In this document: in pieces, positions 13,154 to 35,367 of the stretch | Layout: each line of letters starts with the position of its first letter | Position numbering within the stretch: the first letter of the stretch is position 1 | Source: Rhodobacter sp. 24-YEA-8 | Lineage (GTDB): Bacteria > Pseudomonadota > Alphaproteobacteria > Rhodobacterales > Rhodobacteraceae | Length of the DNA stretch: 64,000 nt | Reading direction: 5' to 3' | Assembly (NCBI RefSeq): GCF_900105075.1 | Contig: NZ_FNSK01000001.1 | Span: 2,887,001 to 2,951,000 of the forward strand | Translations under genes and position numbers: made by a program | Notes under the pieces: generated by a model | What the model was told of the DNA's origin: nothing | The model's database searches: none | The model's input: the letters and a program-made list of their open reading frames with translations, nothing else

Positions 13154-14331
13154 CGCGTCACGCACCATTGCACCACCGGATAGCTGGATTTCCAGCCGCG
13201 CCGGCGCCCGAGCGGCACGGCCTCGGCCAGCTCAAAGCGCAGAAGCTGGCCGCCTCTGGCGCCATGCCAGGCCGCGAGCAACGCCTCGGTCTCAAGCGTC
13301 ACGCCATGCGCCACGACCCGCACCCCCTGCGGCAGGCAGGCCCAGAGCGCGTTCAGAAGGTTGTCATCGGCCCCACCGCCGATAAACACCGCATCCGGAC
13401 GCGGCAGCGCGGGCAACACATCCAGCGCCCGCCCCTCGCGGATCTCAAGCCGGTCGGTGCCAAGCCGCATGGCATTGCCGCGCGCACGGCCTGCGCGGGA
13501 GGCATCCGCCTCGACGCCGATCGCCCGCATGGCGGGATGCGACAGCAGCCATTCGATCGCGACTGACCCCGACCCGGTGCCAATATCCCAGAGCAGTTCG
13601 CCCGCGCGCGGCGCGAGCGCTGACAAAGCCAGCGCGCGGATCGGGCGTTTGGTGATCTGGCCATCATGTTCAAAAAGATCATCGGCGCGCCCGGTGGCAA
13701 GCGTCGCCGCCCGGCCCACGCCCCGGATCTCCAATGCGGCGACGACAAGATCCTCTGTCACCGCCCCGTCGAAGTCACCGGCAGTGGTGGCGATCACGCG
13801 CTCTTCCGGCCCGCCGAGATGGGTGAAAAACGTCACCAGGCTTGCAGAAAACCCGGTTTCTACAAGGTAAGCCGCCAGCGCAGCCGGGGCCTTGCCATCG
13901 CGAAGCGTCACGATCAGCCGCGCACCAGGCGCCAGACCGGGACGCAGCCGGGATAACGGTGCTGCATGAAGCCCGTGGCAGCTGACCTCTTCCAGCCGCC
14001 AGCCCTTGCGGGCGGCAACCAGCGCAAAGACCGAAGGCGCAGGAAGGGCGCGCCACTCGCCCGGCGCCAGTTCCCGCGCCAGACTGCCGCCGGCGCCGAA
14101 CCAGAACGGATCGCCCGAGGCCAGAACCGCAACCCGCTGCCCGCGCAAAGCCAGAACCGGCGCCAGCGCGAAAGGCACCGGCCAGGGCCGCTTGTCAGGA
14201 TGCTCGATCATCGCCAGATGACGCGGCCCCCCGAACACGACATTCGCGGCCGCCAGCGCCTGACGGCTTGCATCCGGCAGGCCGGACGCGCCATCTTCGC
14301 CAATACCGATGATGGAAAGCCATTCAGCCAT
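13150..14331 (-). CDS. cobL: Precorrin-6Y C5,15-methyltransferase (decarboxylating)
   Basis: This is a 393-residue fusion of two methyltransferases. The N-terminal CbiE-type half starts MAEWLSIIGIGEDG, and the C-terminal CbiT-type half from about residue 205 carries the class I SAM motif ELLWDIGTGSGSVAIEWL and FIGGGADDNLL. It methylates C5 and C15 and decarboxylates the acetate side chain at C12. I chose ATG 14331 because AGAAGG precedes it and the first residues match the family. The start codon overlaps that of divergent cobK in a shared CATG. Confidence 0.95.
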   Translation of the reverse strand: MAEWLSIIGIGEDGASGLPDASRQALAAANVVFGGPRHLAMIEHPDKRPWPVPFALAPVLALRGQRVAVLASGDPFWFGAGGSLARELAPGEWRALPAPSVFALVAARKGWRLEEVSCHGLHAAPLSRLRPGLAPGARLIVTLRDGKAPAALAAYLVETGFSASLVTFFTHLGGPEERVIATTAGDFDGAVTEDLVVAALEIRGVGRAATLATGRADDLFEHDGQITKRPIRALALSALAPRAGELLWDIGTGSGSVAIEWLLSHPAMRAIGVEADASRAGRARGNAMRLGTDRLEIREGRALDVLPALPRPDAVFIGGGADDNLLNALWACLPQGVRVVAHGVTLETEALLAAWHGARGGQLLRFELAEAVPLGRRRGWKSSYPVVQWCVTR

Positions 14332-15076
14332 GACCCCGAACCTTCTCATTCTTGGCGGCACAACCGAGGCGAGCCAGCTCGCCCGCCTGGTCGCGGAACG
14401 CGGGATCAGGGCCACGCTGTCCTATGCTGGCCGGACAGAAACCCCGCGCGCCCAGCCCGTCGCGGTCAGAACCGGCGGGTTCGGCGGTGCCGAAGGGCTT
14501 GCCGCCTGGATGCGCCAGCACCAGGTCACGCATCTGATCGACGCCACGCATCCTTTTGCCGCACAGATGAGCCAGAACGCCCATGCGGCGGCGGCCCTGA
14601 CCGGCACGCCTCTGATCCGGCTGATGCGCCCGGCCTGGACGCCTGCGCCCGGTGACGACTGGACCGGCCTCGCCGATCTCGAAACCGCCGCCATGCGGCT
14701 CGGGGCGGCACCGCGCCGGGTGTTTCTCGCCATCGGCCGGCTGCATCTCGCGGTCTTTGCCGGCCAGCCGCAGCATGACTATCTCCTGCGCCTTGTCGAT
14801 CCGCCCGAGGCACCGCTGCCCTTGCCGCGCGTCACGGTTGAAATCGCGCGCGGCCCCTTTGATCTCGCCAGCGACCTCGCGCTCCTGCGGCGCCACGGCA
14901 GCGATCTGATCATCGCAAAAAACTCCGGTGGCCGGGGCGCGGATGCAAAACTCGAGGCCGCACGCGCGCTTGGCCTGCCGGTCTGGCTGATCGACCGCCC
15001 CGTTTTGCCGCCTGCGCAAACCGTCTCTGATCCTGCGGAAGTCCTCGCCCGGCTTCATGCCGACCTCGGCGTGTAA
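14330..15076 (+). CDS. cobK: Precorrin-6A reductase
   Basis: About 248 residues from ATG 14330, giving MTPNLLILGGTTEASQLARL with the Rossmann-type NADPH motif; IDATHPFAAQMSQNA and a C-terminal VWLIDRP segment are family features. It reduces precorrin-6A to precorrin-6B with NADPH. An alternative ATG at 14309 lies inside cobL. It is the only plus-strand gene in the minus-strand cob operon: its start overlaps that of cobL and its 3' end overlaps cobJ by 22 nt, so the operon transcript is antisense to all of cobK. Confidence 0.93.
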   Translation: MTPNLLILGGTTEASQLARLVAERGIRATLSYAGRTETPRAQPVAVRTGGFGGAEGLAAWMRQHQVTHLIDATHPFAAQMSQNAHAAAALTGTPLIRLMRPAWTPAPGDDWTGLADLETAAMRLGAAPRRVFLAIGRLHLAVFAGQPQHDYLLRLVDPPEAPLPLPRVTVEIARGPFDLASDLALLRRHGSDLIIAKNSGGRGADAKLEAARALGLPVWLIDRPVLPPAQTVSDPAEVLARLHADLGV

Positions 15077-27871: not shown

Positions 27872-28360
27872 TCAGCATTCCGGATAGCCGAGGCGGATCA
27901 GCTCTGCCCCGCTCACCCGGAGAGGGTTGTCGAGCCTGTAACGCGCCGTTTCCATGAACCAGCTGCGAAGTGGTTCGCGGTAATGCTGCGCCATGATCTG
28001 CGACCAATGGTCAAATTCCGGCTTTGGCAGCGGCTTGCCGTAAGAGCTCGGGCCATGAAAGCCAAAGCTCGCGCGGCGGTGGACGCAGATATTGTCGAGC
28101 CCGAGATACATCGTGCAGGCCGAATTGCAGGTGCCACGCAGCTCGACGCGGTCGCCGCTGGCCCGCAGGCGCTGAACCTCGCGTTCCCTGGTCGCGATCA
28201 GACCGCCCGGGTCGGCCCGCACCACCCTGATCGTGCCGATATGGGTGGGCCGCATCTGCGCCAGGGCCTTTCCCGGACTGAGCGGTGGTATTGCACCGCT
28301 GGCTATTGAAAAGCACAGGACAGCAAAGCCCGCCCGCACCCGGGTCGAGACACGTTTCAT
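27872..28360 (-). CDS. Secreted ClpP-fold-like protein of unknown function
   Basis: The 162-residue protein begins with a Sec signal peptide (basic MKRVSTRVR, hydrophobic stretch, cleavage near KALAQ). The mature part has the pattern GGLIATREREVQRLRASGDRVELRG followed by TCNSACTMYLGLDNICVHRRASFGFHGPSS, which resembles periplasmic ClpP/crotonase-fold proteins (COG3904-like), where Ser in the C-x-SAC loop could be a nucleophile. I assign no substrate. It is convergent with the flavin reductase gene, separated by 18 nt. Confidence 0.6.
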   Translation of the reverse strand: MKRVSTRVRAGFAVLCFSIASGAIPPLSPGKALAQMRPTHIGTIRVVRADPGGLIATREREVQRLRASGDRVELRGTCNSACTMYLGLDNICVHRRASFGFHGPSSYGKPLPKPEFDHWSQIMAQHYREPLRSWFMETARYRLDNPLRVSGAELIRLGYPEC

Positions 28361-28582
28361 GACAAACCCCTTTCCACCTTAGCGGCGGGGTCATCTGAGT
28401 TTCCGACCCTCACCCATCGCGAAGATGAGCAAAGCAGAAGCGTGCTTAAGACGAGGTTTTCACAGCTGAGGCCGGAGGCATTCGAGTCATTAAAACAGGA
28501 TCTTAATTCCCCGGATTTGCCATATTCCGCGCAGGCTATCGGTCTGGATCTGCCGCCCGCACTGGCCCCGATCAGGCATGGG

Positions 28583-29605
28583 TCAGCGTCGGATCAGGGC
28601 GGCAAGCGCGGCCTCGCCCGGAGCACAGGCCGCGATAAGACGCGCCCTCTCAGCGGGGGCAAGCCGGTCCGCGCGAGACGGGCGGTGCTCCGGCCGGGCT
28701 CCGGCCTCCCTCAGCCAGCCCGCCGGGGCCGATACATCCAGATACAAGGCCAGCGCCGCCAGTTCCGCCTCCGGCGCCGCGACCAGTGCCTCATAAGAAA
28801 GGTGATGCCAGCGCGCATGTGGCAGGGCCGCAAGCGCGTGCGCGCCCCGGATCACCATGGCCGACCAGAACCGCGCCAGCAGCAGCGGATCGGCGGGCTT
28901 ATCCAGCATCGGCGTGACCGGCATCGCGACGCTCAGCGCCTGCAGGACCCGCCAGATCCGCCCGCGCCCGTAATGGCTGTCAGGGTCAAGAAGGTCGATG
29001 CCAAGGCCCAGCATCCGCTGCCACATCCGCGCGGCCAGCCTGGTGGCGGGGTAATCGCTCATCGAGAGCACGGTTTCCGGGCCGCTCCGCGTCAGAAGGA
29101 CAAGGCGCGCCTCGGGAAACAGGCGCGCCAGCGTCCGCGTCGCCACCAGCGAGCCGCCCGAACGTTCAACCCAGAGCCGGCGATTGCGGGCCATGGCCAT
29201 CGCGCCAAACAGCTGGCGGTAGTGATCCGCAACGCTTTGCCGGGGAAATGCAGCAACCTCCGCCGCCAGCTGGTCGAAAAGGTCATCGGGCGCGTCCGTC
29301 AGATGCGGCAGAGCGACCTGGAGGAGCGGCGGGCAGCGAAACGGGTCATGGCGGTTGCGCTCCTGGCACCCATAGAGAAACTCACGCGGCGCCCGCAGCG
29401 GATTGCCGGCCAGCGCGCCGATCCGGGTCGGCTCCGCGAGGCCACGCCAGAAGCGCCGCGCCGAAAGCTGCCCGGGCGGGAAGGCCCGCGCGCCGGCAGT
29501 GGAAAACACCTCCGAGAGGCTGAGCAGTTCGGGATGCAGCCGGATCAGATCCGAAACCAGCGTCGACCCGCAGCGCGCAGAACCAAGGATGAAAGCCCCC
29601 GCCAT
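28583..29605 (-). CDS. Sulfotransferase family protein
   Basis: This 340-residue protein opens with AFILGSARCGSTLVSDLIRLHP, the 5'-phosphosulfate-binding loop of PAPS-dependent sulfotransferases, and has LVLLTRSGPETVLSMSDY mid-protein, resembling the 3'-phosphate-binding region (R..P..S). It would transfer sulfonate from PAPS to a hydroxyl or amine acceptor. Its start lies 3 nt after the TetR stop, so the two form an operon. It faces away from the ketoacyl-synthase operon, which suggests a role in modifying that product, or an unrelated Stf0-like function. Confidence 0.8.
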   Translation of the reverse strand: MAGAFILGSARCGSTLVSDLIRLHPELLSLSEVFSTAGARAFPPGQLSARRFWRGLAEPTRIGALAGNPLRAPREFLYGCQERNRHDPFRCPPLLQVALPHLTDAPDDLFDQLAAEVAAFPRQSVADHYRQLFGAMAMARNRRLWVERSGGSLVATRTLARLFPEARLVLLTRSGPETVLSMSDYPATRLAARMWQRMLGLGIDLLDPDSHYGRGRIWRVLQALSVAMPVTPMLDKPADPLLLARFWSAMVIRGAHALAALPHARWHHLSYEALVAAPEAELAALALYLDVSAPAGWLREAGARPEHRPSRADRLAPAERARLIAACAPGEAALAALIRR

Positions 29606-29608
29606 TTT

Positions 29609-30208
29609 TTAGCCCTTCGGCTTGAGCCGGCTGAGCATCGCATCCAGCACCGAAGCCGCGATCTCGCCGGCGCTTTGTGTGGTCAGGATGTCGAGCCGGC
29701 GATCCACCTCCAGCGCCACCGCGCCATGAACCGATACATAAAGCTGCTCGGTCAGCCGCATGGCACGATTGTCATCCAGATCGGGCGCATGTTCGCGGAG
29801 CAGCTCTGTCAGCCGCCCCATCAGGCCCCGGACCGCCTCGCCATACCAGTCGGGAAAGGTCTCGCGCTGGCGCATACCGCCGAAAAGTGCGCTCCACAGA
29901 GCCGGGTTGCGGCGCATGAAAGAAATATAGCTCTGGCAAATCAGATGCAGCCGCGCTGCAGGGGTGCCTGCCTCGGGGAGTGTGTCAAAGAGCTGTTCAA
30001 GCCGGGCAAAGGTCTCGCGGTTCACCTCCATCAGAATATCCGACATCGAGCCGAAGACATTGTAGATCGAGGCTGCCGTATACCCGACCTCACGCGCGAT
30101 CGCGCGGGCCGAGAGACCCGGGACGCCTTCGCGATCCAGGATCCCGCGTGCAGACTCAAGGATGGCCTGGCGCAGCTCTGCCCGCGGCACACGCTGGGGT
30201 CGGCTCAT
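29609..30208 (-). CDS. TetR/AcrR-family transcriptional regulator
   Basis: About 199 residues from ATG 30208, preceded by GGAGG eight nt upstream. The N-terminal HTH is LRQAILESARGILDREGVPGLSARAIAREVGYTAASIYNVFGS, quoted in parts: ARAIAREVG and ASIYNVFGS are the recognition elements. The C-terminal ligand domain is typical of the TetR_C group. It is divergent from a fatty-acyl-type biosynthetic operon and very probably binds the two TGAACA-type palindromes between them, regulating itself and the operon. An acyl-CoA-like ligand is inference. Confidence 0.9.
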   Translation of the reverse strand: MSRPQRVPRAELRQAILESARGILDREGVPGLSARAIAREVGYTAASIYNVFGSMSDILMEVNRETFARLEQLFDTLPEAGTPAARLHLICQSYISFMRRNPALWSALFGGMRQRETFPDWYGEAVRGLMGRLTELLREHAPDLDDNRAMRLTEQLYVSVHGAVALEVDRRLDILTTQSAGEIAASVLDAMLSRLKPKG

Positions 30209-30234
30209 ATTCGCCTCCGTAAGGTTTTGCATAC

Positions 30235-30247
30235 TGAACATCGTTCA
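30235..30247. promoter_or_regulatory. Operator 1, TGAACATCGTTCA, before tetR
   Basis: A perfect 5-3-5 inverted repeat located 27 nt upstream of the tetR start codon. It matches operator 2 (30289-30301) at 12 of 13 positions, so both are probably bound by the same TetR dimer. Confidence 0.7.
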
Positions 30248-30288
30248 AAAACTTCTTGACGTAAAGCCCGGCCCAGGTCAAGGGTTAA

Positions 30289-30301
30289 TGAACATTGTTC
30301 A
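30289..30301. promoter_or_regulatory. Operator 2, TGAACATTGTTCA, before the ketoacyl-synthase gene
   Basis: A perfect 5-3-5 inverted repeat 12 nt upstream of the plus-strand ATG (30314). Between the two operators lie inward-facing TTGAC boxes (30256-30260 plus strand and 30277-30281 minus strand), which look like the -35 elements of overlapping divergent promoters. Confidence 0.7.
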
Positions 30302-30313
30302 ATAAGGTGCATC

Positions 30314-31327
30314 ATGCAGAGTTCATCCCATCCGGACAGCCCCCAGGCGATGCGGATTCTCGGTACGGGTATGTATCTGCCGGAACAGCGCCTTGCCTCA
30401 TCCGCGATTGACCAGCGGTTCGGCTGGGCTGCGGGCACCACCGAACGTCGCTACGGGCTTGCCGCCCGCCATATTGCCGGACCCGAGGAAAGCACATCGA
30501 TGATGGCGTCCGAAGCGGCGCGCCAGGCGCTTGAGGTGGCCGGGATCCGCGCGGGCGATCTCGATCTGATCCTTGGCGCCTGCGGGGTGATGGAACAGGC
30601 GATCCCGTCGACCGCGACACTGGTGCAGGCACGGCTTGGGCTGGGGAAGTCGGGCATTCCCTCTTATGACGTGAATGCGACCTGTCTGAGTTTCGTGCAG
30701 GCGCTGGATCTGGCCGCGATGCAGATTGCCGCCGGGCGCGCGCGCCGGGTGCTGGTGTTTTCCGCCGACATCGCCTCGGTCGGGCTGGACTGGTCCGAAC
30801 CCGATACGGCAGCGATCTTCGGCGATGGCGCGGCGGCGGTGGTTCTGGGCGCAGATGCGGGCGAAGGCGTGCTGGCAAGCCGTTTTGAAACCTATTCCGA
30901 AGGCCAGGCCGCCTGCGTGCTTGAGGGCGGCGGCACCCGTTACGGCGGCACCCGCGATCCGGAACTGCTCAACCGGACCAATGTGTTTCATATGGATGGG
31001 CAGACCGCCTTTCGCATCGCCGCGCGCTACCTGCCGCGTTTCCTCCGGGCGCTCATGGACGAGGCCGGTGTCGGTTACAGCGATCTGGCCTGTATCGTGC
31101 CGCATCAGGCCTCTGGCCCGGCGCTGGATCATGGTCTGGCGCGGCTGGGAATACCGCCCGAAAAGGTGGTCCGGACCTTCGGGCAGCTGGGCAATCAGAT
31201 CGCGACCTCGATCCCGACCGCATTGCATCACGCGATCACCTCGGGGCGCCTGCAGCGCGGCGAACTTGCCATGCTGATCGGCACCTCGGCGGGGCTGTCG
31301 CTGGGTGGCATGGTGGTGCGCTGCTGA
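30314..31327 (+). CDS. 3-oxoacyl-ACP synthase III / OleA-type condensing enzyme
   Basis: This 337-residue thiolase-fold enzyme keeps the FabH-type Cys-His-Asn triad: Cys in DVNATCLSFVQAL (near residue 125), His in CIVPHQASG, Asn in QLGNQIATSIPTALHH. The TCLSF context differs from housekeeping FabH (usually AACAGF), so it is probably a specialised synthase that condenses acyl-CoA or acyl-ACP units, as in OleA or signalling/secondary-metabolite systems. It is first in a four-gene operon with 1- to 11-nt overlaps. An AAGGTG precedes the ATG. Confidence 0.85.
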   Translation: MQSSSHPDSPQAMRILGTGMYLPEQRLASSAIDQRFGWAAGTTERRYGLAARHIAGPEESTSMMASEAARQALEVAGIRAGDLDLILGACGVMEQAIPSTATLVQARLGLGKSGIPSYDVNATCLSFVQALDLAAMQIAAGRARRVLVFSADIASVGLDWSEPDTAAIFGDGAAAVVLGADAGEGVLASRFETYSEGQAACVLEGGGTRYGGTRDPELLNRTNVFHMDGQTAFRIAARYLPRFLRALMDEAGVGYSDLACIVPHQASGPALDHGLARLGIPPEKVVRTFGQLGNQIATSIPTALHHAITSGRLQRGELAMLIGTSAGLSLGGMVVRC

Positions 31328-32301
31328 TGGCGGTTCTGATCACAGGGGCGACAGGGTGTCTTGGCGGCGGCATCGCGCGCCAGTTGATGGCCGCAGGTGT
31401 CAGAGTCACCGGCCAGGGCCGCGATCTGCGGGCCGGGGCAGAACTGGTGCAGCAGGGCGCGGAATTTCTGCCGCTCGATCTCTGCGATCCGGTGCCGCTT
31501 GCGCCGGTTTTGGCCGGCACAGAGACTGTTTTCCACTGTGCCGCCCTGTCTTCGGCCTGGGGACGCGCCCGTGACTTCCAGGCGCTGAATGTCGACGCAA
31601 CCCGCAGACTGCTGGACGCGGCGCGCGACGCCGGGGTGAAGCGGTTCATCTTTGCCTCCTCCCCCAGCATCTATGCCAATGGCACCGACCGGCTGGATCT
31701 GACCGAGGACGCGCCCCTGCCCGCACGCTTTGCCACGCATTACGCCCGCACCAAGGCGGAATCCGAGGCATTGGTACTGTCTTATGACCAGCCCGGCGCG
31801 ATGCGGGTGGTGGCGTTGCGCCCCCGCGCGATCTATGGGCGCGGCGACCGGGCGCTGATGCCGCGCCTTCTGGCGGCAATGCGGCGCGGGACGCTGCCCC
31901 TGATCTCGGGCGGTGCGGCGCTGATTGATGTCACCCATGTCTCGGATGCCGCGCGCGCGATGGTTCTGGCCGCAGATCACGCCCACAAGGTCGGAGGGCG
32001 GGTATTCAACATCACCTCGGGCGAGAGCTGGCGGTTCGACCGTCTTGCTGATGCAGCGGCGGATCTTTTTGGCCTCACCCCGCGCCGCAGGCACCTGCCC
32101 TATGGGCTTGCCATGGCAATCGCCACCGGGTTCGAGGCCATGCATCACCTGTTTCGCCCCGATATTGAGCCGATACTGACCCGCCAGGCCGTGGCCTCGC
32201 TGGGACGCAGCCTGACACTCGACATCTCTGCCGCACGGGCCGATCTGGGATATCGCCCGCAAGTGACCCTTGCCGAAGGGATGCGTGACTATGCTGCCTG
32301 A
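31327..32301 (+). CDS. NAD(P)-dependent epimerase/reductase, OleD / 3-beta-HSD type
   Basis: This 324-residue extended short-chain dehydrogenase has the Rossmann motif MAVLITGATGCLGGGIA, a VFHCAALSS segment and the catalytic Tyr-x-x-x-Lys as THYARTKAESE (near residue 142). It would reduce a 2-alkyl-3-keto acid or similar product of the upstream synthase to a hydroxy acid, as OleD does. The start codon overlaps the synthase stop by 1 nt (TGATG). The substrate is inference from order and family. Confidence 0.85.
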   Translation: MAVLITGATGCLGGGIARQLMAAGVRVTGQGRDLRAGAELVQQGAEFLPLDLCDPVPLAPVLAGTETVFHCAALSSAWGRARDFQALNVDATRRLLDAARDAGVKRFIFASSPSIYANGTDRLDLTEDAPLPARFATHYARTKAESEALVLSYDQPGAMRVVALRPRAIYGRGDRALMPRLLAAMRRGTLPLISGGAALIDVTHVSDAARAMVLAADHAHKVGGRVFNITSGESWRFDRLADAAADLFGLTPRRRHLPYGLAMAIATGFEAMHHLFRPDIEPILTRQAVASLGRSLTLDISAARADLGYRPQVTLAEGMRDYAA

Positions 32302-33106
32302 GATCATCCCGTTTCGCGTCGGCTATTGCAGCGCGCCCGCACGATTGTCGCGCCGGGATGCGGGCTGGTGGCCGATCCGCTTTCCCGCCGGTGTCGTGCT
32401 GATCCGCCATCCGGGCCTCGGCGATATCCTGTTCGATACCGGCTACGGACCTGCCTTTTTCGAGGCAACCCGCCCCATTCCGGAACGCTTCTACCGCTGG
32501 CTCACGCCGGCGCATCTGGATAGGGACCAGCGCCTGCCCGCGCAGCTCGGCCGCCACGGCGCGCAGATCCGGCACGTGGTGCTCTCGCATCTCCATGCCG
32601 ATCATGTCGCGGGGCTGTTCGGGATGGATCCGATCCCACCCGTCCTCACCTCGCGCAAATCCTGGGCGCATCTGCATCAGGGCAGCCGCCTCGCCACGCT
32701 GAAAGCGGGGTGCCCCGAAGGGCTCCGACGGCGGCTTCAGGCTCTGTCACCGCAGTTTTTCGAAGGTTTCCCGCAGGTCCCGCCCCCGGAGGGCGGCAGC
32801 AGCCTGGGACCGTTTCACGACATTTCCGGCACCGGCAGCCTGCTTGCGGTGGCCCTGCCCGGGCATGGTCATGGTCAGTTCGGCCTTTATCTGCCCCGGA
32901 CCACCGGCGGCCCGGCCTTTCTGATCGCCGATGCCGCATGGAGCCGCCAGGCGCTGCGCGATGGCTGCCCGCCGCCCGATTACACCCTGCGCCGCCTTGG
33001 CGATGCAGCGGCCTATCTCGCCACTTTCTCGGCGCTGGCCGATCTCGCCCGGAACCGGCCCGACATCACCTTCTGGCCGTCCCATTGCCCGGAGGCCTTT
33101 GCGTGA
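32291..33106 (+). CDS. MBL-fold metallo-hydrolase
   Basis: About 271 residues from ATG 32291, overlapping the reductase 3' end by 11 nt. The metal site HLHADHVAG (HxHxDH, near residue 100) and a later HGHGQ and WPSHCP are those of the metallo-beta-lactamase superfamily, in the lactonase/glyoxalase II-like branch. It would hydrolyse a lactone, ester or thioester. Its place in the operon suggests it processes a pathway intermediate, such as releasing product or opening a lactone; this is inference. Confidence 0.85.
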   Translation: MLPEIIPFRVGYCSAPARLSRRDAGWWPIRFPAGVVLIRHPGLGDILFDTGYGPAFFEATRPIPERFYRWLTPAHLDRDQRLPAQLGRHGAQIRHVVLSHLHADHVAGLFGMDPIPPVLTSRKSWAHLHQGSRLATLKAGCPEGLRRRLQALSPQFFEGFPQVPPPEGGSSLGPFHDISGTGSLLAVALPGHGHGQFGLYLPRTTGGPAFLIADAAWSRQALRDGCPPPDYTLRRLGDAAAYLATFSALADLARNRPDITFWPSHCPEAFA

Positions 33107-34383
33107 CCCCCTCGCCCCTCACCGCCTTTCTGGCCGCACGTTACGGACACGGCTTTCGCTCGCGTGCGGAAATCATCGCCTGGCAGGCCGCCGGGCTGCG
33201 CCGCCTGCGCGAGCAGATCATGCCGCGCTCGCCCTTTCACGCGCCCTATGCCGCGAGGCGAATTGCGGAATGGCCGATGATGAACAAGGCCCGGCTGATG
33301 GAGCATTTTACCCTCATCAATACCTGCGGCATTCATCGCGATCAGGCCCTGGATATAGCGCTGAAATCCGAAGAGAGCCGTGATTTTTCCCCGATGATCG
33401 GCGAGGTGGCGGTGGGGCTTTCCACCGGCACCTCGGGGCAGCGCGGGTTGTTTCTCAGCGATAAACGCGAACGCGCGCTCTGGGCGGCGGTGATGTGCGG
33501 CCGGTTCTGGCCCGCGCCACTCCTGTCGCGTCAGCGGATCGCGTTTTTCCTGCGCGCGAATAACGCGCTCTATGAAAGCCTTTCGAACCCGCTGATGCAG
33601 TTCCGTTTCTACGATCTTCTGTCTGAGTTTGAGGTGCATCTGCCCCTGCTGAACCACCAGAACCCGACCGTGCTGATCGCCCCGGCGCAGATCCTCGGCC
33701 TGATCGCAAAGGCGCAGGCGGCGGGGCAGATCCGCATTCGCCCAAAGCGAATCATCTCGGTCGCCGAAGTGCTCTCTCCCGAAGACAGCGCGCTCATCGA
33801 GACCGTTTTCGGCCTGCGTCCCGACCAGGCATACCAATGCACCGAAGGTGTTCTGGGCTATACCTGTCGCCACGGGTCGCTGCATCTGAACGAGCGCTAT
33901 ATCCATTTCGACCGCGATGTGATCGACGACGCGACGGGCGCCTTTTGCCCGGTGATCACCGATTTCACCCGGCAGAGCCTGCCGATCCTGCGCTACCGGC
34001 TGGATGATGTGCTGATCCCCGACCCGGAGCCCTGCCCCTGCGGCTGTGCGAGCCAGCGGCTGAAACGGATTGAAGGGCGCAGCGATGACATCCTGTGGTG
34101 GGCCGGCGCGGATGGCAGGCCGCGCATGGTGCCCTCGGACGCGATCCGCCAGGCAGTGGCGACCCTGCCGGTGCCGGTGCGGGATTACCGGGTGATCGAA
34201 GAGGCCGGGCAACTGACAATCTGGCTCGACACCACGGTCGGGGAAATCGCCGGGCCGGCGATGGAACATGCCGTCACCCGCCTCGCCGCCGGCCTTGGCT
34301 GCATCCCGCCGGTGATGCAGATCCGCACCGGATTGCCCGCCGATCTGGCCGCCAAACGACGCCGCGTGCTGGTGCGGCGCTGA
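33103..34383 (+). CDS. PaaK / F390-synthetase-type adenylate-forming enzyme
   Basis: This 426-residue enzyme starts at GTG 33103, overlapping the MBL stop by 4 nt, with GGAGG upstream. The ATP-binding loop VGLSTGTSGQRGLFLSD, a YQCTEGVLGYTC segment, LRYRLDDVLIP and the hinge IEGRSDDIL place it in the phenylacetate-CoA ligase / coenzyme F390 synthetase group of ANL enzymes. It would adenylate a carboxylic acid, perhaps the hydroxy acid made upstream. A Cys-rich EPCPCGCAS stretch could bind Zn. The end product is unknown. Confidence 0.85.
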   Translation: MTPSPLTAFLAARYGHGFRSRAEIIAWQAAGLRRLREQIMPRSPFHAPYAARRIAEWPMMNKARLMEHFTLINTCGIHRDQALDIALKSEESRDFSPMIGEVAVGLSTGTSGQRGLFLSDKRERALWAAVMCGRFWPAPLLSRQRIAFFLRANNALYESLSNPLMQFRFYDLLSEFEVHLPLLNHQNPTVLIAPAQILGLIAKAQAAGQIRIRPKRIISVAEVLSPEDSALIETVFGLRPDQAYQCTEGVLGYTCRHGSLHLNERYIHFDRDVIDDATGAFCPVITDFTRQSLPILRYRLDDVLIPDPEPCPCGCASQRLKRIEGRSDDILWWAGADGRPRMVPSDAIRQAVATLPVPVRDYRVIEEAGQLTIWLDTTVGEIAGPAMEHAVTRLAAGLGCIPPVMQIRTGLPADLAAKRRRVLVRR

Positions 34384-34440
34384 CAGGGTCAGCCAGGATG
34401 GGGCTTGCCAGCGCGGGGGCGTGACGGGCAGGCTGGCGTG

Positions 34441-35367
34441 ATGGACAAGCTGCAAGATATCCTGAACGAGATCACCGCCACGCTCGCGAGCCGCGAAGAG
34501 CGCGGGCATCCCGCCGATTACATCCCGCCGCTGGCCCATGTCAGCCCGAAGCATTTCGGCATCGCCGTCGCGCTGAATGAGGGCGGGCTTTTCACCGCCG
34601 GCGAGGCGGATCTGCCTTTCTCCATCCAGTCGATTTCCAAGGTTTTCACCCTGACACTGGCGCTTGGGATGTATGGCGATGCGCTCTGGCGTCGTGTCGG
34701 GCGCGAACCTTCGGGAAGCGCCTTCAACTCCATCGTGCTGCTGGAACAGGAAAAGGGCATCCCGCGCAACCCGTTCATCAATCCGGGCGCGCTGGTGGTG
34801 GCGGATGCGCTGCTGGCGCATGCCCGGGCGCCGCGTGAGACGATTGGCGAGATCCTGCGGTTTTTGCGTTTCATCTCGGATGATGACACGATCAGCGCCG
34901 ATCCGGCGGTGGCGCGCGCCGAAAAGGCGACCGGCTTTCGCAACGCGGCGCTTGCGAATTACCTGCATTCCTGGGGCAATCTGACGAACCCGCCCGACCA
35001 TGTGCTGGGCGTCTATTTCCACCATTGCGCCGTCACCATGAGCTGCGCGCAACTGGCCCGCGCCGGGGGCTATCTGGCAAATGGGGGCCGCAATCCGGTC
35101 ACGGGGCGTTCGGTGGTCTCGAACGTGCGCGCGCGGCGGATCAATGCGCTGATGCTGACCTGCGGCCATTATGACGGCTCGGGCGATTTCGCCTACCGCG
35201 TTGGATTACCCGGGAAAAGCGGGGTCGGAGGCGGGATCCTCGCGGTGGTGCCGGGGGTGGCGTCGATTGCCGTCTGGTCGCCCGGGCTGAATGCGAATGG
35301 CAATTCGCTGTTGGGCACCGAGGCGCTGGAAATGCTGTCGCAGCGGATGGGCTGGTCGGTTTTCTGA
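34441..35367 (+). CDS. glsA: Glutaminase
   Basis: This 308-residue protein belongs to the serine-dependent beta-lactamase-fold glutaminases: the SxxK motif is [11 protein letters not shown] (Ser near residue 65), with [11 protein letters not shown] and [22 protein letters not shown] motifs. It hydrolyses glutamine to glutamate and ammonia in the cytoplasm. It begins 57 nt after the adenylating enzyme, so read-through is possible, but the function is unrelated. The ATG at 34441 gives the family N-terminus; the in-frame codons upstream are not supported. Confidence 0.94.

Follow-up and report, generated by a model that had tools for sequence, protein, structure and literature searches.

Positions 28583-34383 of a 64,000-nt stretch of contig NZ_FNSK01000001.1 of Rhodobacter sp. 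24-YEA-8 (the whole stretch being referred to here as the window) carry six intact open reading frames (ORFs) arranged as a divergon, in which genes for a sulfotransferase and a TetR regulator diverge from an operon encoding a beta-ketoacyl-acyl carrier protein synthase III (KAS III), a short-chain dehydrogenase/reductase (SDR), a metallo-beta-lactamase-fold (MBL) hydrolase and a PaaK-like adenylating ligase (LIG; Table 1). This layout, with overlaps of 1 to 11 nt, had been proposed in an earlier note on this DNA, and is confirmed by the ORF coordinates and by Pfam and NCBIfam scores: the plus-strand genes overlap by 1, 11 and 4 nt, and a gap of 3 nt separates the TetR and sulfotransferase genes. 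The same note's identification of an MBL hydrolase and a PaaK/F390-type ligase agrees with Lactamase_B and TIGR02304 scores above their cut-offs; the Cys-His-Asn triad that it described as intact recurs as Cys124-His264-Asn294 in 56 of 56 aligned cassette synthases, and the YxxxK motif of the SDR can be read by eye. The ligase was read from a GTG at 33103 (the longest ORF begins at 32710), and the true start of TetR is probably an internal ATG.

Table 1. Features of the divergon and of the stretch that contains it (window positions; cut-offs in brackets).
Feature	Position	Strand	Evidence or remark
Sulfotransferase (PF13469), putative decorating gene of this lineage	28583-29605	-	Sulfotransfer_3 54 bits (27)
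TetR regulator, probably autoregulating the divergon	29609-30241	-	TetR_N 32.4 bits (24); TetR_C_33 above cut-off
Operator-like palindrome 1, TGAAC-ATC-GTTCA	30235-30247		Putative TetR binding site
Operator-like palindrome 2, TGAAC-ATT-GTTCA	30289-30301		54 bp from palindrome 1; putative TetR binding site
KAS III ketosynthase, clade joined by CorB/MxnB	30314-31327	+	ACP_syn_III_C 89.2 bits (26.6); ACP_syn_III also above cut-off
Extended SDR reductase related to OleD, falling outside the trusted OleD group	31327-32301	+	Epimerase 143.8 bits (20.9)
MBL hydrolase, predicted AHL-lactonase fold	32291-33106	+	Lactamase_B 43.3 bits (22.7)
PaaK-like adenylating enzyme, TIGR02304 (F390 synthetase-related)	33103-34383	+	407.2 bits (251.9)
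Stretch missing as a single unit in G005 (same genus)	28361-34440		tblastn map of flanks

The four plus-strand genes form a conserved core. One genome per species was scanned with a ligase profile; of 581 confirmed relatives, the best 80 were retained as loci and searched again in six frames with profiles of all four families (L003-L006, identical in sequence to L015-L018, being counted once). All four core genes are present together in 74 of these 80 loci, which were collected by the ligase alone, following the window's order KAS-SDR-MBL-LIG in 65 cases, SDR-MBL-LIG-KAS in eight and KAS-MBL-LIG-SDR in one; the search for the same set in other genomes that the earlier note had suggested thus points to a conserved unit, and to an arrangement that exceeds chance. 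The remaining six (L028, L031, L043, L060, L079 and L087) show no synthase match in the stretch read: L031 and L043 are cut off by contig ends, and L028 is a damaged copy, in which the ligase is split and the interval from the TetR to the SDR match holds no synthase. In L087, a desaturase gene lies upstream instead.

Complete four-gene loci occur in Pseudomonadota, Campylobacterota, Bdellovibrionota, Bacillota, Acidobacteriota, Bacteroidota and one Saccharimonadota metagenome-assembled genome (MAG), that is, in at least seven phyla, several of them represented by one MAG or record each; a Fusobacterium record outside the 80 (L137) also contains all four genes, and two cyanobacterial loci hold the set without KAS. 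The TIGR02304 cut-off is passed in 8 of 348 Pseudomonadota genomes, including that of the strain itself. Within the class, a ligase match at E 1e-20 is present in 6 of 385 genomes, again including its own, which alone passes the cut-off; of the five other matches, L119 and L120 hold the whole core. The nearest named relatives of the ligase of this 5.0-Mb genome, among the matches listed, belong to Paracoccus sp. IB05 (94%) and Pseudogemmobacter species. A seven-gene version is matched in 672 of 5,426 complete Escherichia coli genomes (RefSeq set), or approximately one in eight; in strain ABU 83972 (L135, 7001-13882) it comprises the core together with genes for PAP2, a sterol-desaturase-family protein and an acyl-CoA desaturase, and is flanked by narI on one side and a tyrosine tRNA pair on the other. 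The six-gene divergon of Ketogulonicigenium vulgare (L136) is carried on pKvSKV1, a plasmid typed as conjugative, beside repA/repB.

Closer to the window, the distribution is patchy. Among 13 genomes of the genus, a cassette of this type is found in six (68-100% synthase identity), a distant type in three (41-48%), and a FabH-like match only in four. One of these genomes, G007, contains a distant core (L118) with ATP-grasp, Rieske-like and c6 (FemX/MprF-fold) matches in place of the sulfotransferase, and the genus therefore harbors two cassette types. In G005 the site is empty: as mapped by tblastn, the glutaminase gene and the unnamed gene at 27872 lie approximately 0.28 kb apart, versus approximately 6.1 kb in the window. 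Gene order is kept on both sides, with triosephosphate isomerase, ribose/galactose isomerase, fructose-bisphosphatase and glutaminase genes on one and, on the other, the 27872 gene, two genes for flavin reductases, one HPP-CBS gene and one of cobQ type (families assigned by Pfam), and this empty site with intact flanks indicates that the six genes were gained or lost together. The glutaminase gene adjacent to the cassette has two partial matches in G012 (G012:C1:589323-590245), which suggests a frameshift or an assembly error. A chance or housekeeping arrangement, consisting of a second FabH with catabolic neighbors, is hardly credible as an account of the locus: its individual domains are common, but a presumed housekeeping FabH is encoded elsewhere in the genome (37% identity), presence within the genus is patchy, and the conservation of the core contradicts a chance neighborhood.

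The region between the divergent genes contains two copies of the palindrome TGAACNNNGTTCA; the window holds these 2 matches against 0.02 expected, and two were obtained in none of 100 shuffles. Among 22 loci checked for recurrence (18 of them distinct), exact pairs 54 bp apart are present in L001 (the window), L002, L015, L016, L017, L025 and L026, a pair 55 bp apart in L030, and a single exact palindrome near the synthase start in L018, L023 and L027. No exact copy occurs at the synthase start in L022, L024, L028, L029, L136, L120 and L035; degenerate versions are readable by eye in L022, L024, L029 and L136, and L120 and L035 are also devoid of the sulfotransferase. Because the palindromes are paired and a tetR gene lies on one side, the divergon is best read as autoregulated by TetR through these sites. 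Genome-wide, the palindrome occurs at 8 places against 0 for a control, and no regulon is claimed from it. Of the 6 places outside the divergon, three cluster where a second tetR-type gene begins (G000:C1:2105078-2105147; L156), whose TetR_C_33 score is over the cut-off and TetR_N score just under, and three have no gene of evident connection nearby, as read by eye. L022 includes a second TetR match with four palindrome copies at 13851-14561. A sigma-70 scan of positions 28200-34600, a procedure that is uninformative for this organism, returned no promoter-like site.

The earlier note had described the synthase as OleA-type, and it is this claim that fails. The best solved relatives of the window synthase are CorB (217.6 bits) and MxnB (214.6 bits); entries that we take to be OleA score at most 78 bits, and identity to a putative OleA is 27%. 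In an alignment of 79 cassette synthases, the column of OleA Glu117 is occupied by Ile in 53, Leu in 24 and Met in 2 (Ile in the window), and by Glu in none; elsewhere it holds Glu in both OleA rows, Phe in all 11 FabH rows, and Val in both CorB and MxnB. Excerpts of PMC7064751 describe this Glu as essential for OleA condensation, and as followed by Pro in all but two OleA proteins of that study; in sections of PMC4578411, V94 of MxnB and CorB takes the position of the essential Glu105 of PpyS, and the two proteins fall within the FabH clade.

Two trees bear on the same question. The first comprised 74 rows, among them 56 cassette synthases (55 of the 79 aligned plus L134, also used for the triad count), two OleA rows assigned by context from Ole-type clusters, and 11 presumed FabH rows. 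CorB and MxnB join the 56 cassette rows with a support of 88 (not starred), apart from FabH and OleA, which form separate branches (99 and 100, respectively, both starred). A second tree, with long rows removed (35 cassette rows were kept; L089, L119, L066 and 18 rows removed by thinning were left out, as were one OleA row and three further ketosynthase rows), gives the same join a support of 93, also not starred; the cassette rows exclude CorB/MxnB weakly (support 45), and positions inside and beside CorB/MxnB are not separated. By joining CorB/MxnB to the exclusion of FabH, and by carrying a hydrophobic residue for the Glu, the synthase groups with the CorB/MxnB type. OleA membership is ruled out by the missing Glu117 and the separate OleA branch, and a housekeeping FabH by the separate branch of the presumed FabH rows. 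The earlier note had seen the pathway idea as failing if the synthase grouped with housekeeping FabH and its neighbors were not conserved; the tree and the 74 complete loci speak otherwise on both counts. Since an OleA-type Glu base is missing, its nucleophile is probably malonyl or beta-ketoacyl, rather than a plain acyl chain.

This kinship evokes the question of alpha-pyrone synthesis, in which the synthase would join two chains like CorB and MxnB, the pyrone being later reduced or opened; parts of PMC5724707 report that MxnB binds and condenses two carrier-bound chains and employs C121, H264 and N292. The two enzymes being the best solved relatives, joining the cassette rows in both trees, and also lacking the Glu (PMC4578411, as excerpted) all favor such a route, which is nonetheless very unlikely: a pyrone needs neither SDR nor lactonase nor ligase, the placement inside or beside the cassette rows has a support of 45 only, and no polyketide synthase (PKS) was noticed by eye among the ORFs at 25-38 kb.

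As for the partner enzymes, the best NCBIfam model for the SDR is OleD (NF042422), and the protein is 33% identical over its length to a putative OleD of L113; the OleD-type reductase of the earlier note thus survives as a relative of OleD, and not as a member, the score of 201.7 bits being below the cut-off of 580 and the protein falling outside the trusted OleD group. The MBL hydrolase is predicted with high confidence to match the fold of N-acyl homoserine lactone (AHL) lactonases over its full length, its seven metal-ligand positions are invariant in 32 of 32 rows, and by these ligands and the modeled fold it would belong with the AHL lactonases. The ligase is a member of TIGR02304 by the curated cut-off, with a profile match to the phenylacetate-CoA ligase 4r1l (E 9.4e-18) and no BLAST similarity to one putative OleC, that of L113 (best BLASTP E 0.70). 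OleB and OleC are thereby rejected as identities, the MBL enzyme standing in place of an alpha/beta hydrolase and the PaaK-like ligase in that of OleC, and these family assignments bear out what the earlier note had proposed for both positions. An Ole pathway would be favored by enzyme roles that correspond four-for-four, by an SDR best matched by OleD and by the lactonase fold of the MBL enzyme; it is considered improbable, as the Glu reported as essential for OleA condensation (PMC7064751, in part) is lacking in 79 of 79 synthases, the synthase lies off the OleA branch, the SDR is outside the trusted group and the ligase does not resemble OleC.

The core is accompanied by exchangeable modules. 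Across the 80 loci, ATP-grasp genes are found in 28, PAP2/hydroxylase genes in 21, sulfotransferase genes in 11 (ten of them with a TetR match), glycosyltransferase genes in four and none of these in 16, and the four module types never co-occur. The sulfotransferase has no solved homologue at E<=0.01. In two Shewanella clusters (L044 and L057), the FemX/MprF-fold c6 gene is present in three copies each. In MAGs of Lachnospiraceae and Erysipelotrichaceae whose gene order is SDR-first, as in streptococcal loci, the core is followed by an acyl carrier protein (ACP) gene (L063, 10217-10441) or by genes for acetyl-CoA carboxylase, an acyltransferase and KAS II (L072, 10448-15889), which ties it to fatty-acid synthesis in those loci.

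The modules also bear on a route resembling that of the Pseudomonas quinolone signal (PQS), whose operon encodes a ligase together with FabH-type synthases and an MBL thioesterase. In such a scheme, the ligase would activate an aromatic or short starter, KAS III would add malonyl, the SDR would reduce the product, and the MBL enzyme would release or quench a lactone or thioester, yielding a diffusible signal or antibiotic and not a membrane lipid. The resemblance of the enzyme types, a weak MBL profile match to PqsE (approximately 25 bits), the solved relatives of the ligase, which are phenylacetate-CoA ligases and other PaaK-like ligases, and an MBL fold shared with signal lactonases lend it some plausibility. 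It remains unlikely: the MBL enzyme is much nearer to lactonases (best E 1.6e-27) than to PqsE (approximately 7e-5), and the fatty-acid desaturase, fatty-acid hydroxylase and PAP2 modules better suit a membrane lipid.

The explanation put forward here, which stands about an even chance of being correct, is that TetR controls the divergon as a biosynthetic unit, in which the core of four enzymes makes a hydroxylated fatty-acyl product and a fifth enzyme sulfates it. In a first step, KAS III would load an acyl chain on Cys124 and condense it with an activated thioester (malonyl or beta-ketoacyl). The OleD-related SDR, judging from its family, would reduce the new ketone to an alcohol, and the MBL enzyme, with its predicted lactonase fold, could open a lactone or thioester to give a free hydroxy acid. 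The TIGR02304 ligase would adenylate a carboxylate, belonging either to the starter or to the product, so that it can be passed on to CoA, a carrier or an acceptor, and in this lineage the sulfotransferase would add a sulfate, probably on the hydroxyl. In other lineages, the same core is accompanied by amino-acyl-type, hydroxylase/desaturase or glycosyl modules. Given that the core unites a lipid-related synthase and a ketoreductase with a lactonase-fold hydrolase and an acid-activating ligase, next to mutually replacing genes for lipid modification or hydroxyl capping, it most likely makes a shared hydroxylated acyl scaffold to which different head groups or decorations are added; the lipid product with a sulfatable group that the earlier note had in mind appears reasonable in this light.

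Several observations weigh against this explanation. The loci L060, L079 and L087 seem truly to lack a synthase (only SDR-MBL-ligase in the stretch read), and the core may thus work with a distant one. The 16 loci that carry no module of the four types (in three of them, contig ends limit the stretch to under 11 kb), together with L017 (locus L005 of G006), which has TetR and no sulfotransferase, indicate that decoration is not essential. Lactone hydrolysis is not assured either, since Trp217 is present in at least 90% of 32 MBL rows in place of the Tyr of GcL, its Alicyclobacillus relative and AhlX; this Tyr, three residues after the bridging Asp, plays a role in AHL lactonases. An ACP gene was found near the core in only 1 of 89 loci (L063), by a crude motif filter that had no positive control; judging from the ORFs, no genes for fatty-acid synthesis adjoin the streptococcal SDR-first loci, and three distant ligase relatives of the class (L012-L014, 92-108 bits) show only the ligase, and nothing else of the core, within the 4 kb examined. 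A broader proposal, which is tentative and rather doubtful, is that the cassette is the core of an unrecognized, horizontally spread lipid family, with a hydroxy-acyl or lactone scaffold built by a CorB/MxnB-type ketosynthase through a non-Ole mechanism and with swapped modules for sulfate, sugar, amino acid, hydroxylation or desaturation. If it were true, CorB and MxnB would have been recruited later from the cassette family into the assembly lines of antibiotics.

Neither the cassette nor its product was found described in open-access PMC full text, a scope outside which most subscription papers and all preprints fall, and that literature yielded no paper under the TIGR02304 family name or accession either. 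The ligase family is already in NCBIfam, and has hence been seen by annotators. A gene named F390 synthetase appears as the site of a Pseudomonas syringae transposon mutant in a table of PMC9823363, and is mentioned in portions of PMC5467263 (in a COG table), PMC5501837 (on expression in Acinetobacter) and PMC2649909, the match in each case being one of name. An enzyme set conserved in at least seven phyla and in approximately one in eight complete E. coli genomes is therefore without an assigned product in the open-access literature. With only four genes, its product could be found by expression in a laboratory host and comparison of extracts, while the exchangeable modules amount to a series of derivatives offered by nature, and the synthase could show how chain joining of the CorB and MxnB kind arose among FabH-type enzymes.

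Among known systems, the OleABCD olefin and OleACD beta-lactone pathways likewise cluster a KAS III and an OleD-related SDR with an adenylating enzyme and a lactone-type hydrolase, but here the synthase lies on another branch without the catalytic Glu, the ligase is TIGR02304 and not OleC, and the hydrolase is MBL and not an alpha/beta hydrolase. CorB and MxnB, the stand-alone ketosynthases of corallopyronin and myxopyronin, share residues with the cassette synthase, including the hydrophobic one at the OleA Glu position; those enzymes, however, form a pyrone in the service of PKS assembly lines, whereas here an SDR-MBL-ligase cassette is present and no PKS was noticed. The pqsABCDE operon also unites an adenylating ligase, FabH-like synthases and an MBL hydrolase, while the MBL enzyme and ligase of the cassette come from other subfamilies; pqsABCDE is not known to include an SDR. 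The ligase is a member of TIGR02304, an NCBIfam family whose name carries no tested function. Finally, the MBL enzyme would share a full-length fold and all metal ligands with the AHL lactonases GcL, AiiA, AiiB and AhlX and with 4-pyridoxolactonase, from which it differs in its approximately 20% identity, in a Trp for the conserved Tyr, and in being encoded in an operon with biosynthetic genes.

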